Below, in pieces: positions 56,401 through 64,000 of a stretch of DNA of 64,000 bases. This DNA is from Heterotrichella gracilis (Eukaryota; Sar; Xanthophyceae; Tribonematales; Xanthonemataceae). Where the stretch lies: contig JAULBX010018414.1 in the NCBI GenBank assembly GCA_032358255.1, forward strand, positions 20,988 through 84,987, written 5' to 3'. The position numbers and the translations under genes were made by a program. Below the pieces are notes generated by a model, which was not told the DNA's origin, searched no databases, and was given only the letters and a program-made list of their open reading frames with translations. Position 1 is the stretch's first letter. Every line of letters starts with the position of its first letter.

Positions 56401-59224
56401 GGGGGTGGTAGCGCTGCAGGCGGAGGCAGGGAGGGTCAACATGCAGTCTAGTGCTTCTGGGATGGGTGGTGGGTGGTAGCGCTGCTGGAGTGCTGGAGGG
56501 TGGGTGCATGGGATGTGGTGGGGGGAGGTGGGGGCCACTTTGCCGCGCATTGCACACTGGCATGCTGTGACATCTGTAATTGTAGAAGGAGGGAATTTTG
56601 TGTTGAGCGCCCTTGCGCCAGCTCCTACACCATTGGGCCAGCCCTCGCTTGCACTTGACCCAACGCCAGCTCAAAACCTACGAACATATCTACGTTGTGT
56701 TTTTGACCCGCCACGGTTACCCCCCACGCAGGCGCACTACCGCGACTACGGCAAAATGACCTTTTACCCCAACCCAGAATCTACACAAGAATTATCTTTT
56801 GTTTATAACTCACCACCCTAAACCCATTACCCGCTCCGCAGGCGCACTACCGCGACTACGGCAAGATGACCTTTGCCCGCTCCGCCCTGGTCCTGCACAA
56901 CATGGCGCACCAGGGGCGGGGGCCGCTGGACGAGCTGCCGCGCCTGGAGGTTCCCCCTGAGCTCAAGGAGCTGTTCTTCCTGGATGACCCCATAGGGGGC
57001 GAGCACATGAACATCATGAAGGCAGGGCTCATCACGGCGCACAGGCTGGTGGCTGTGTCGCACGGGTGAGTGGAGGGTGAGGGATCACTGCGCAGGTGCT
57101 GGTGGTGGTATCGCATGGGTGTGTGCCACCATGGGGTGGGGGTGGAGATATTGGGGGGCGGGGGCTGTTCCACTTTGATGTCTGTGTGCGGGTGAATGGT
57201 GGTGCTGCGGGCTCCGCACATGCCATGGGCACAGTCTAGTGCATGCCCTACAAGGGGCAATGACCCCTACTCCCCCACCCTCCCTGGTGTATGCGCTATA
57301 GCCGGCGTTCACCCTCTCGTAATGCGCAGGTACGCGTGGGAGTGCCAGACCCAGGATGGGGGGTGGGGCCTGGACCACATTTTGAGGGAGCACTCGTGGA
57401 AGCTCAAGGGTATTGTGAACGGCATCGACATGAACGAGTGGAACCCCGAGATCGACACCCACCTCACCTCAGACGGCTACATCAACTACAGCGTGGAGAC
57501 CCTACGGGAGGGTAAACGGCAGTGCAAGATGGCGCTGCAGAAGGTGTGCGCGATGGTGCCCCTTCCCCATCCCCTGCATATCATGATATTGCGCCCCAAA
57601 GCCTCCCCACACCCCCCACACCCCCCACACACATATCCTCCTCCCCCGTCTTAATGATGACCATGACCACTCCCACCCCTCCTGCACAGGGGCTGCGCCT
57701 GGTTTGGACCCAACACCGATGCTTAGGTTTATACTGACTGGGATTAAATATGTATATAGATCTTGAAAAATATGGGTTTGATATTGATCCCCCCTTCTCC
57801 CCCTCAATCCAGGAGCTGGGCTTGCGCGTGGACCCCAACATCCCCATGCTAGGGTTTATCGGACGCCTGGACTACCAAAAAGGCGTGGACCTCATCCGTG
57901 ACAGCTACCAATGGATCATTGAGCAGGGGTGCCAACTGGTCATGCTGGGGTCAGGGCGGGAGGACCTGGAAGCTAGCCTGAGGTGGGTGCTGGACTATGG
58001 TGTGGTTAGGGTTTATAGTTTAGGGTTTAGGGTTTGGAAGTCGAGGATCATAAAGCAGGGTTGCCAGCTGGTCATGCTGGGGTCAGGGCGGGAGGACCTC
58101 AAAGCCAGCCTGAGGTGGGTGCTGGGCCACGCTGTGGTTAGGGTTTAGGTTTAGTGCGCGTGGATGTGTAGGCTGACGCTGTGTCTAAGGTTTAGGGTTT
58201 GGAAGCCAGGGGTAATTGGGCAGGGCAGGCAGCTGGACATGCTGGGGCCAGGCAGGGAAGAGCTGGGGAACTGCGTAGCTGGGTGCAGGGGTACTGTACC
58301 CTGTGTTTGGGGTTTAGGATTTGGGACTCTTGCATCATGAAGCAGGGCTGCCAGCTGATTGGGTGGGAGTACTTCACTGCCACAAAAAACTTTCCGCACA
58401 CCAGTCGCATTCCCGTCCATTCCCCACCCCAATCCCCACCCCAATCCCCAGGGAGATGGAGAGCTGGAACCAGCAGCAGTGCCGGTGCTGGGTGGGCTTC
58501 TCGGTGCAGACCGCGCACCGCATCACCGCGGGATGCGACATACTGCTCATGCCCTCGCGGTTCGAGCCCTGCGGCCTCAACCAGCTGTACGCAATGGCTT
58601 ACGGCACGGTGCCGGTGGTGCACGCGGTGGGGGGCCTGCGGGACACGGTTAAGCCGTACAACCCCTTTGAGAACACAGGTGCGTGGGCATCAGCAAAACC
58701 CTAAAGCCTAAACCCTTAAGAACCCTTTTGGGCATACAGGTGTGTGGGCCAAGGCACAAACCTTAGCCCTAAACAATCTCTTTAGGAACACTGTCCTGGA
58801 CCCCAAACCCCAACCCTGAGACCCTTGCCCTCTCAAGAAGCATGTGATGTGCTCCGCGTGTTGACGCAAGGCCAGATTCTCTTGGCCAGAAATGTGCCGT
58901 TCGCTCCTCAAAGGATGTGGTGCATTATGAGCACTGTGCGACACTGCAAAGTAACCCTTGCAGAGTGCGGTGTAGGGTGTAGGGTTACCCTAAAGCAGCG
59001 CTGAACCCTGCCCGAAACCCTTGCGCGCAGGCACTGGGTGGACCTTTGAGAGCGCGGACGCGGGTCGGTTCCGCGACGCGCTGGGCAACGCGCTGTACAC
59101 CTACCGCGAGTTTGGCGACTCGTTCCGCGACATTCAGAAGCGCGGCATGACGCAGGACCTGTCCTGGGAGCACGCGGCCGCTCAGTATGAGGAGGTGCTG
59201 GTGGCAGCAAAGTTCCAGTGGTGA
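53469..59224 (+). CDS. soluble starch synthase, class II
   Basis: Eleven exons (53469-53735, 54273-54359, 54618-54780, 55162-55313, 55907-56017, 56256-56393, 56842-57065, 57330-57543, 57813-57982, 58452-58678, 59031-59224) give 648 residues. The enzyme adds glucose from ADP-glucose to the non-reducing ends of alpha-glucan chains in the plastid. Transit peptide and a short linker (Pro/Ala-rich, with a basic helix [11 protein letters not shown]) occupy about 155 residues. The GT5 catalytic domain runs from [23 protein letters not shown] at 171-175 binds ADP-glucose. NDWH, NMAHQG and VNGIDMNEW are present. The GT1-like half starts near [10 protein letters not shown] (467) and holds [17 protein letters not shown], with Glu547. 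The ending [20 protein letters not shown] is that of plant SSII. Exon 1 is assigned by its transit-peptide character and phase, so is less certain. Confidence 0.92.
57999..58345 (+). repeat. copies of exon 9 tail in starch synthase intron 9
   Basis: Copy 1 (58045-58114) repeats the exon 9 end almost exactly, with its GTGGGTGCTGG donor; weaker copies are at about 58209-58285 and 58331-58365. TTTAGGG tracts precede each. The frame from exon 9 stays open through the true donor to the copy-1 donor, 132 bp further on. Confidence 0.9.
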
Positions 59225-61035
59225 TCAGGGGCGGGTGCAGGAGTGAGCTGGAAACACGCGGCTGCGCAGTGTGGGGGGGTTCTGGTGGCAGCCAAGTTTC
59301 AGTGGTGACCTGGGGCGCAGAATTTGGCACCTTTTGGGCTGTGGTTTCAGCAGGAGCTCGGTTCTGGCCCGGCCATGTGGCCATGAGGTGGGCAGCATGG
59401 CACAGTGGGGGTGAGGATCAGTGGGGGGAGACAAGATGCTGCGCAGTGTGAGGAGGTGCTGGTGGCAGCAAATTTCCAGTGGTGACCTGGGGGAGGGAAA
59501 AGGGGATGGCGTGCGGAAATGAGCTGGAAAGAGGGTGCTAGTGGCAGCCTGTCCCAATTGTGACGTGGGCAGTGTCAGGGGCATGTCATTTGGTAATGAG
59601 ATGGGAGCACGCGGCTGCGCAGCATGAGGGGGCGCCGATGGCAGCTAAGTTGCAGTGGTGACGGGGGCAGAAGGCAGGTGATGGAGGCTCACAAGCACGT
59701 AGCTATGAGCTGGGAGCACACAGCTGCGCAGTGCGAGGTGGTTGTGGCAGCCAAGCGGCAGTGGCGATGCGGTGGGGTAAGGGATGGCGATGAGAATGTG
59801 AAGAGACTTTGCATTTTTTTTATTCTCAAATTATGTGGTAGATTGCAACCAACTTGGAGTCGCATCCATTGGGCCTGGGGTTGGGTTTAGGGTTTAGGGT
59901 TTTGGTGGTGGTGGGGGGGGGAGTGTGAAAGGACATGAGGGGTTGAGGTGAGGGTGATAGGTTGTGGGGGCTGTGCAGCGCAGCTAGAATTGTATCGCAG
60001 GCGCAGTCTGTGACATTGCCATAGTGTCTCTTGGCTGCCAACAGTTGTTGTCAGTTGGTGGGGTATAGCCAGGCTGAACCGCTAACTGATGTTCATGCTC
60101 AAGGGTTAGGGCTGGGGTGACAGGCAGATGGGGCGGCAAGCGTCACGATGGCGTTTGCAGAGAATGTGGGGAGGGCATAGCTTGCAGATAGTTTGCATTA
60201 TTTCTTAGATAGCGACAACCAATGTCACCGGAGTTAAATTGGTGCACTGGGATTTTGGATGAACATAACAGTCAAATGCTTTTTATGAGTTTTCCGAGGT
60301 GTACCGTATGTATCCCGCTTTGATCAGTCATCATTGGAAGCAGTTTTTTCTGCTGTATAGGTGGGCAAACCACAGCATTGAACACATTAGCTGCTTCTTG
60401 TATGCAGTCAATGTCTTGGATTGGTATGGAAGCAACATCGTATGCAACGGCCACCTTAAGGGCAAGCTTGTGTTGCATCTAGGTATGCTACCTGGTATAT
60501 GACAAGCAAGGGTAGGGTAAGTGCATCCATTCACGTTATGGTACAGGGTCAAAAAGTTTGAATCTTTGAAACATCAAGTTTCATTGGCTGCCCAAAGTGA
60601 TTGTCCGCTCTTTATCCTGCCAATGAAACATCAAGTTTTATTGGCTGCCCCAAAGTGATATGTGCCAGGCACTGAGGCTTGCACCAATTCACAGCGTCCT
60701 TACATGTATCTTTACATGCCATGCATACAGTGTGACACACTTTCTTACGGTAAGCAAACGAAATGCTGTAAGAACTATCAAATGGGGTTATGAGCAATGC
60801 TATGTTTCCCTCCTTTGGCAAATGCACGCAGACTGCCACCTGGCCGGGCAGTCCCTGCCGCGCGGCACTGAGTGTCACTTTAAATTAAAAGCAGTACTAC
60901 AGGGCCTGTGACAATATTAGCAAATCAACCCCACCAGGTTTGCACCTTACATTGGCATGAAATTGGAATTTACCGTCCGGGATGGAACCCATACGTGCCC
61001 ATGGGATCAAATGGCATCACAGTAATGTTCAATAG
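59225..61035. other. intergenic region: terminal-exon copies, then short repeats
   Basis: 59240-59770 is the terminal-exon minisatellite described separately. A GGGTTTAGGGTTTAGGG tract is at 59883-59899. A direct repeat (GAAACATCAAGTTT(C/T)ATTGG and the following TGCCC(C)AAAGTGAT) occurs at 60568-60602 and 60625-60660. No exon is supported. Confidence 0.55.
59240..59770 (+). repeat. decayed copies of the starch synthase terminal coding segment after the stop
   Basis: Five copies of the segment encoding [19 protein letters not shown] plus stop lie downstream: about 59245-59307, 59430-59485, 59521-59563, 59600-59662 and 59707-59770. Each has GGCTGCGCAGTG-like and GTGGCAGC(A/C)AA-like parts and most end CAGTGGTGA. 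All lie beyond the true stop and have drifted. Confidence 0.9.
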
Positions 61036-64000
61036 CTAGACCAAATACCCAGCAACCACAGATATGCAGCTGCTGTTGCCTATGCCGATGACCTCTCCCT
61101 CATGGCATCCACCCCAGCTGCCCTGCAACACCAACTCCAGAAAGTGGAACGTTTTGCAGCTTGGAGCGGACTGTATATAAAGGACGCTAAATGCACCACC
61201 ACAGGTATCCTACTATCCACTTCACCCAGCCAACCCATTGACCCTGCCCTTATCACCACCACCCTCTCCAACATCACCCTCAACAACACCCCCATCCCCA
61301 TTGTCCAACCGACAGACCCTTTTAAATATCTTGGAGTACACTTTACCCTCACAAGGGACTGGACCCACCAAAAAGCCTACATTGCAGAACAGATCAAAAC
61401 CAAAACAGCACAACTACTAGCCTCAGATGCATCTATGAACCAGAAACTCATCATTGAAACCCAATCCATCTTAGGCGCCATGCGCCACTCCTTCTGCGTT
61501 GCCCCTTTCAACCCAACTACTCTCTATTACCTAGACACACTGCGCGCTAATCTCCTGAAACGTATCAATGGCATGCCCAAGCAAGCCAACCAGAGTTTCT
61601 TGTACCTCCTTGGATCAGACTTTGGGCTAGAGCACCCCTCTATCCTCCACGATTACATTCGGGTTTCCACCACCAGTTTGCTAGAATCTCTGAACGATAC
61701 TGGACGGCTGGGCACACTGACCAGAGCTTTGCATACGCAGGAACAAGCCCTGCACAAACAACATGTCAGGTCCACTACGTATACGGACCCACACCCTCGG
61801 TTCAAAAACATATCAATGAACATGAACAAACTCTTCTACATCACACATTTCACCTCCCTTACAACAGATATCAACACCTTGTGCTCCCCCTTCCAGCCAT
61901 CAGACACGATCTATGAAACCTTAGACACCCACACCAAACACCTAGAGGCCCACCTACACGCAGACGACTACCACAATGTCCTCAAGCACTTATGGAAGCT
62001 CGGCATATATGCAACCCAGGACGTATGTAATCCTTCCACTATGTCCTTGCTCACCACCCCTGAGTTCAAAAGGAAATACCCCCTGGCCACCCATAACCAA
62101 CTCCACGCTTTCCAGTTGCTCTGTGGACAGTTGAGTCCCCCTGCGGCACCCCAGATCCACCCTGACCACCCCAGCAGGTCCCCACCTAGAGACACCAAAG
62201 TTACCACCACACCCTACATCAAGGCTTTCCAGCCAATCCTAGACAACCCTGATTACTCTCTTCAAATTGAAACAGCAGAAATCAACCCTGACCTGGACAT
62301 TGAACCAACCGGCGCTTACTGCATTCGCACCGATACCAGCACCAGCCCTTCCCTCTCACACTTATACGCCCCCACAGGCCGCCACCTCTTCCAAATTTCC
62401 ACCAACACGCTAACCGACCTGCACAATGACTACATGGCTACTAGACAGCCCTCGACCTCTGCAACTCCGTTCCCCACCCACCTCTACCAGCTCCTCACTC
62501 GCTACAAAACCGGCTACAGGGAGCACAATCACACCACTGACATGCGCAACCACTGGGCAACACCACCAGATCTCATGCGGGCAATTGCCCAATCCTTTTC
62601 CACTGAAATGGAATGGTTTGCCTCCCCTCTCAACCACTCCCATACTATCCCCCAGTACTGCTCAGCCTACAAAGAGGACACCCTCTTTGGTGCAAGCCAT
62701 GACGCATACAAGCACATCTGGACCAAGTCAGGCCAGTGTAACCCTGAGTACACATCTGACCAGATGTTCAAAGCCACCAAATGGGCCATCAACTCAACGC
62801 TCTCAGAAGACCCATCTCTGACCATAATGGTCCTCCCGCACTGGCCCAGCTATGCGTATGAAAAGTTCCTCCACCACCCAGCAGTCCACACCTTGGCCAC
62901 AATCCCAGCCAATCACCTAGGGTTTGTCCCACCCACCCACCACATGCATGCAGATGCACCCCCAGCACGATTTCCGGCTGCCAAATGGCCAGTTTTAATC
63001 CTCCTAGTTGCAAACTCCAAAGGGCTTGATGCCTTTGTCCGCACGCAACACCTCCATCACCTGCAGACCACCCTCAACAGCTATGGCTGTAACATCACCG
63101 ATCTTGCTGTCAACCTTGCTTCGTATACATCCCAGCGCAATGACCCAACTGAAGTAGCAGCAACCTTCACACTCTCACAGGCATTCTTAGCAGCACAACC
63201 CTTGGCAACCACGCCACCCCCTGCACCACCCTCAATACCATTGCCAGAAGCCTTCACCCAACCGCCACAACTGAGATATGACAAATCCCAATTTGTTTAC
63301 ACTGACGGTAGCAAAGCTGGCACAGCCATTGGCGCCTCGGTGTTTGACCCAACACAAAAAGCTGTCTGGAGAATTTCCTTCAAGGACCATGATGGTAGAA
63401 TCAATACCAATCTTAGGGCAGAATTGGCAGCTATATTTTGTGCCTTGTCCAACACAGCTGCACGCACCCAGCTCCATATTCTCACTGACAGCTTGACCTC
63501 ACTCCAATTGATCAACACAGTGCTCTACAACCCTGAACGACTCCGCCTCCACAAACACAAGCACATGCTCCACGCTATCATGGCACACATCCTACTACGC
63601 GAAGGCCGAATCATATGTGGCAAAGTTCGAGCTCATACAAACGTCTGGGGTAACGACATCGCTGACATGGTCGCCAAACAGGCCACCCACACTGACATCA
63701 GTACCAGCCCGCATGTCTGCATGCCGTCCGGCACCGCCGAAACCGATGCTGAGTTTACCGCTTTTCCCAACGCGGGTCGAGGCTCCTCATGGCTGTCTTA
63801 CAACACGGCGGACGGAGACCTTTGGGAAGTTGACAATTTGCAATCCCATGTCCATAAACTTACAGCTCAGACAACGTACAAACACCTGTGGAAGCGAGCT
63901 ACAAAGAATGAAAAAAGCTATCCTGGGTATCTCAAAAAGCTAGCTGACACCACGCTGCCAGGCAAAGGCCTCTGCCACTCTAGTATACCACGTATGAAAG
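61036..64000 (+). mobile_element. non-LTR retroelement: RT end, adenine-MTase-like domain, RNase H (5' truncated, runs off window)
   Basis: One frame is open from just after a TAG at 61033-61035 to the window edge, 988 codons with no stop. It begins 15 codons before the RT catalytic box YADD (61081-61092) and includes the next RT motif FKYLGVHF (61321-61344); the RT fingers and palm upstream are missing. About 400 residues without a known domain follow. Next come WATPPDLMRAI at 62554, FASPLN at 62617-62634, YCSAY, FGAS, CNPEY (NPEY at 62740-62751), LTIMVLPHWP and later VLILLVAN: the order expected of phage-Dam/PCIF1-type adenine N6-methyltransferases. RNase H follows: TDGS (63301), LRAEL (63412), LTDS (63481), AHTNVWGNDIAD (63631). 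Reading frame, Pro/His/Thr-rich composition and codon use differ from the neighbouring genes. Clade not assigned. Confidence 0.85.

Follow-up and report, generated by a model that had tools for sequence, protein, structure and literature searches.

Arrangement of the window copy

The window, i.e. the whole stretch of 64,000 nucleotides of the Heterotrichella gracilis contig that was analysed, closes on a 5'-truncated copy of a LINE (family A; see below). The DNA similarity of this copy has a shared start at 61034 with both L009 and L016. Its reading frame is open from 61036 to 63999 (988 codons) and runs off the window end, where the contig itself stops. No stop is seen in this frame against 25 expected from the base composition by codon position, and the other two forward frames contain 30 and 47 stops across the same stretch. 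The Pfam matches in the frame follow the order RVT_1, PF12237, RNase_H, and the features are as follows (P0001 is the translation of the window frame).

61034..64000 (+): 5'-truncated family A LINE copy, 3' side cut by the contig end
61072..61344 (+): C-terminal part of the reverse transcriptase (RT), with YADD and FKYLGVHF; PF00078, E 1.4e-8, residues 13-103 of P0001
62356..63105 (+): PCIF1-like methyltransferase domain, residues 441-690 of P0001; alignments A1 and A2, PDB profile match
62443-62850 (+): PF12237 match inside the domain, E 1.9e-15
62548-62568 (+): NHWATPP, in the window frame
62617-62634 (+): FASPLN block, in the window frame
62740-62751 (+): NPEY block, in the window frame, at the place of NPPF in PCIF1
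63283..63684 (+): RNase H domain; PF00075, E 7.6e-13, residues 750-883 of P0001
42619..42918 (-): C-terminal coding-end fragment of the same element family as the window copy, 84% identical to the L042 C-terminus over 100 residues

A first-pass annotation had proposed an adenine-methyltransferase-like domain within a non-LTR retroelement polyprotein at 62530..63120. All the motifs that it quoted (NHWATPP, FASPLN, QYCSAY, FGAS, NPEY, LTIMVLPHWP and VLILLVAN) lie where it placed them, in order and in one frame. The stretch common to the relatives of the domain is wider than that interval, ~62356-63105. Elsewhere in the window, starch-synthase-like exons with TTTAGGG-like repeats in between were noticed by eye at 57700-59230 (+).

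Homology to PCIF1

The PF12237 model ('PCIF1_WW') matches the window frame with 57.3 bits for a cut-off of 31.1, which bears out the earlier proposal of a methylase in the element as a predicted methyltransferase-family domain. That proposal had drawn comparisons with both PCIF1 and phage-type Dam enzymes: the former was right, by PF12237 and by the PDB profile described below, and the latter comes as a weak second. The PF05869 (Dam) model reached 13.9 bits (E 0.045) in the whole window frame and 16.4 bits (E 0.0074) against the domain alone, under its cut-off of 28.1 in both cases, and Dam was rejected on this score as the domain's family; its likeness over the core is weak, and PCIF1 scores far higher.

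Searched alone against PDB sequences, the window domain gave the PCIF1 entries 6irx and 6irv at non-significant E-values (0.033 and 0.056) and nothing else at E ≤5. With a profile built from 12 of this genome's sequences, the same entries were matched at 4.8e-6 and 2.9e-5, respectively, and nothing else at E ≤10; the alignment extends beyond the catalytic block as far as position 257 of 298. A single family B sequence reached PCIF1 at 0.00041 and 0.0022. Given the profile and family B matches, homology to PCIF1 is sound as far as sequence goes. The likeness to PCIF1/CAPAM (PF12237; 6irx, 6irv), a cap-adjacent m6Am methyltransferase, is a homology that takes in most of the methylase core, the blocks FASPLN, a QYCSAY-like block and N-P-x-aromatic following each other in a common order. 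The element differs in having NPEY for NPPF, in being part of a retrotransposon polyprotein and in that no WW domain was matched in the element pieces scanned, whereas PCIF1 proper has a WW domain at its N-terminus for binding phosphorylated RNA polymerase II. PCIF1 is described as acting on the cap-adjacent adenosine of RNA (PMC6318281).

Distribution of the domain among element families

We searched the genome (68.5 Mb, 903 contigs) and obtained 28 listed matches to the window domain, among which a single copy can count as several pieces, and 12 listed matches to PF12237, 11 of them over the cut-off. The RT, methylase, RNase H and other parts were then mapped by tblastn on 21 sources, namely the window and 20 loci. 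Fourteen of the 21 show the methylase, and RNase H lies downstream in the same direction in 11 of these 14. As for the three others, the sequence stretch or the contig ends first in L011 and L034, and no RNase H was found in L016 (C660) because the copy breaks off within the domain. RT lies upstream of the methylase, within the available stretch, in 7 of the 14 (window, L009, L011, L015, L016, L018 and L034), and RT, methylase and RNase H occur all in order in the window, L009, L015 and L018.

By the same mapping, 11 of the 12 PF12237 places adjoin RT or RNase H of these elements; the twelfth, at the contig end of C503, shares 92% of 151 residues with the window copy, and all 12 listed matches were assigned to such elements. 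A host PCIF1 gene was rejected as the source of the matches since the 12 lie in retroelements, and an exon-by-exon search of the genome found no free-standing host PCIF1-type copy, a search that an intron-split gene could escape. The elements fall into the following families.

Family A: window, C723, C660, C245, C503 and others
Family B: C866 and C810, joined on the basis of RT or linker by C727, C429 and C636
Family C: C734, with RT (2.6e-32), methylase (7.7e-9) and RNase H in a neighbouring frame
Family D: C763; C715 and C571 are 81% and 68% like C763, respectively

Families carrying the domain are about 28-46% identical within it; identity to the window copy is ~28-38% for families B and D and 43-46% for family C. 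The methylase and RNase H identities rank the copy pairs alike (rank correlation 0.82; 44 of 47 ordered pairs, which are not independent, so that no P-value is given), a pattern that one would predict for a domain already part of the element when the families diverged. By the mapped loci and these identities, the methylase domain is no one-off and is retained at a fixed place in divergent element families. At L015 3830-5410 (-), a frame matching alpha-amylase (E 8.7e-10) was noticed to have the C734 element directly downstream.

Several copies carry a PHD finger ahead of the methylase: C866 (E 3e-10), C810 (E 6.8e-9) and, by tblastn, C636 and C715. It sits between RT and methylase in C866, C636 and C715, and the available part of C810 shows no RT. 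These PHD fingers (loci L011, L012, L018 and L034) fit a reading in which the domain would methylate DNA, placing N6-methyladenine on the new cDNA or on the target site, so that a new copy would pass for an active gene instead of a silenced transposon; the PHD finger, where present, would bring the complex to active chromatin. The place of the domain between RT and RNase H and the weak Dam match agree with such a role, but the far nearer relative is PCIF1, an RNA enzyme, and no PHD match was obtained in the family A pieces scanned. We regard DNA methylation as unlikely on balance.

Probable membership of the Dualen/RandI group of LINEs

When the C723 RT was searched against the PDB, R2 proteins came closest (best E 1.3e-17), and LINE-1 ORF2 (3.2e-7) was the next of the LINEs. 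An RT query found at least 17 places in the genome and a C-terminal query of similar length at least 110, with several pieces per copy possible; this excess of C-terminal places is the bias towards 3' parts that goes with target-primed insertion. Four family A copies, whose 3' ends were compared by eye, share a common tail ending in CTTT repeats, after which the sequences diverge. RandI families of green algae are described as having non-A tails, and a CTTT tail is given for a RandI-2-tied SINE (PMC3747384).

An APE endonuclease is matched over the cut-off in family B (PF03372, E 2.6e-9), and family A reached 21.7 bits, under the cut-off of 24.5. The C-terminal blocks CPLC...HCLGAC (CCHC) and KPDIV...LLEVKC, recognised by motifs alone, are conserved, also in C832 at 41% identity; this CCHC / PD...ExK-like region gave no Pfam or PDB match. 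By eye, the presumed second nuclease of C763 (L013 5820-6338, +) reads VHIIKIKY against IHLLEVKC in family A, and the catalytic Glu may be lost there. In family B, C429 (L045 1166-3001, -) has a Josephin-type cysteine-protease-like frame upstream of APE (E 0.0017, under the cut-off).

The Dualen/RandI group is described as encoding both endonuclease kinds (PMC3636483, PMC4640811). The likeness to this group comprises APE, RT, RNase H, a putative C-terminal CCHC and PD...ExK-like block in related copies, and non-A repeat tails (PMC3636483, PMC4640811, PMC3747384), and this domain content, as opposed to an RT tree, suggests that the element belongs to it. The difference, in a comparison by description only, is the methylase domain, which goes unmentioned in the parts of those three sources considered here.

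DIRS1-like elements also have one pol with RT, RNase H and methylase (PMC3266345). The role of their methylase is given as not known. Their order is RT-RNase H-methylase with a tyrosine recombinase, whereas the present element is an APE-bearing LINE in which RNase H follows the methylase. A DIRS1-like identity was rejected because the methylase lies ahead of RNase H in 11 of 11 loci having both; no tyrosine recombinase was matched in the pieces scanned, which are parts of elements. An assignment of L012 to Ty3/gypsy was likewise dropped, since the frame with its weak protease match is a different one, further upstream.

The same genome has another type of methylase in retroelements, in two listed copies that are 95% identical: L048 1300-1758 (-) and L047 901-1683 (+). 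These are Dam-like (PF05869, E 2.4e-7 and 5.3e-7, respectively, over the cut-off), have an intact NPPF and stand ahead of a Ty3/gypsy-like RT; in L048, a gag zinc knuckle precedes the domain as well.

The catalytic block NPEY

We examined the catalytic site at 16 places, of which 14 were readable (the frame is broken there in C734, and C439 does not cover it). NPEY was read in 11 of the 14, with NPAY in C511, NLEY in C715 and NPES in C832; the sites of C511 and C832 were read via family B and D queries, the window query having aligned them differently. NPPF or NPPY occurs in none of the 14. ASPLN is present in most readable copies and ASPVN in two, and HWAxPP is likewise kept. The first-pass annotation had asked whether NPEY is conserved among copies, and it is, across divergent families. 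Its doubt that the Glu might mark a decayed site is answered in part, NPEY being the norm in these families: the count argues for a conserved variant and not for the decay of one copy.

The activity of PCIF1 is reported to fall when NPPF is disrupted (PMC6318281). Other RNA methylases are described as having NI/LPY (PMC8868631), so that the middle of the motif can vary, though not necessarily to Glu. A Glu in the middle of the block in nearly all copies of a domain under selection (see below) is what one would expect if the domain were catalytically dead and retained for binding nucleic acid or the cap, so as to position the element RNA or the nascent cDNA during reverse transcription. Yet the Asn, the first Pro and the Tyr of the block are kept in those 11 copies, as are FASPLN and HWAxPP, and NI/LPY shows variation inside the motif of other RNA methylases, as far as described in PMC8868631. 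We consider such a non-catalytic role doubtful, if a shade more probable than DNA methylation.

Selection on the domain

We calculated dN/dS by the Nei-Gojobori method. For the domain, the window copy gave 0.075 with C723, 0.141 with C503, and 0.223 and 0.302 with C245 and C660, the C245 and C660b rows being kept with caution as they include short divergent ends; the C866-C810 pair gave 0.178. The corresponding ratios are 0.101 and 0.310 for RT and 0.147 and 0.086 for RNase H, and the linker, PHD and other rows span 0.05 to 0.50. Left out were the C660a domain (42% identity, misaligned past its frame), the C503 RT-domain link (42%) and the C866-C810 link (12%). Note that C723, the source of the lowest ratio, lacks 14 domain residues and may yet be a dead copy. 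As copies are presumably neutral after insertion, the values are too high, if anything. By these ratios, the methylase domain is under purifying selection, about as strict as that on the replication enzymes RT and RNase H.

Many copies are truncated or contain stops, as would be the case for a functionless host fragment captured and carried by chance. Such a fragment would hardly show the same place in divergent families, dN/dS values well under 1 and long open frames on several contigs, and we hold this explanation to be very improbable.

A possible role in methylating the element's own RNA

The best explanation, which we put forward tentatively and rate somewhat short of an even chance, is a Dualen/RandI-like LINE pol whose PCIF1-family domain methylates the element's own RNA at adenine N6 in cis. 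A PCIF1-family methyltransferase domain would have come between RT and RNase H in an ancestor of this Dualen/RandI-like LINE. It would bind SAM and methylate the N6 of adenine, presumably in cis, since non-LTR proteins tend to remain with their own RNA. As substrate, capped RNA of the element itself would be the likeliest, with the methyl group placed on the adenosine beside the cap or close to it, a preference that comes from the nearest enzyme being the cap m6Am writer. Methylated element RNA might gain in stability, translation or escape from foreign recognition, and NPEY, which keeps the Asn, the first Pro and an aromatic residue, would be a specialised version of NPPF. The host genome has MT-A70 and YTH matches, and the host therefore probably writes and reads adenine methylation itself.

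Several points stand against this explanation: the block is NPEY and not NPPF, whose disruption lowers PCIF1 activity; a WW domain was not found in the pieces scanned; the position by RT and RNase H also fits a cDNA substrate; and the window domain by itself has no significant PDB match (E 0.033). The marking of DNA and the non-catalytic role are both strong rivals to RNA methylation in cis. A further-reaching reading is that an old LINE lineage encodes an adenine methylase, a relative of the cap m6Am writer whose active site has been rebuilt as NPEY, and that some branches pair it with a PHD chromatin reader; during insertion, the element would thereby mark its RNA or its new DNA as part of an active gene. 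We see this as possible, on the doubtful side and marginally ahead of the non-catalytic role.

Origin and significance

PCIF1 is described as eukaryote-only (PMC8868631), and small adenine methylases of jumbo phages are described as closest to the PCIF1 clade (PMC7824862). A tblastn of the family B domain gave no match in the phage records. On viral contigs, no relative was confirmed using alignment A2, the family B domain or the window domain, and none was found on prokaryotic genome contigs, both scans being seeded by short patterns and hence blind to distant relatives.

Among the matches listed from the open-licence literature, titles and abstract starts gave no report of a PCIF1-type domain in a retrotransposon or LINE. 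Iyer et al. 2016, reportedly a study of eukaryotic adenine methylases, and Repbase may already mention such a domain, and Kojima and Fujiwara 2005 reportedly dealt with Dualen. For Dualen and methyltransferase together, no listed title concerned such a domain, and in the part of PMC3636483 considered here 'methyltransferase' occurs solely within a reference.

Retroelement methylases are already known, unlike the role that they play. With a PCIF1-type domain that is under selection and always in one position, in LINE families some of which have a PHD finger and some not, it becomes testable whether a mobile element methylates its own RNA or DNA and whether this protects it. Should NPEY be active, the definition of the adenine-methylase motif would widen, and if the proposed reading is true, PCIF1 would gain a branch outside cellular genes.
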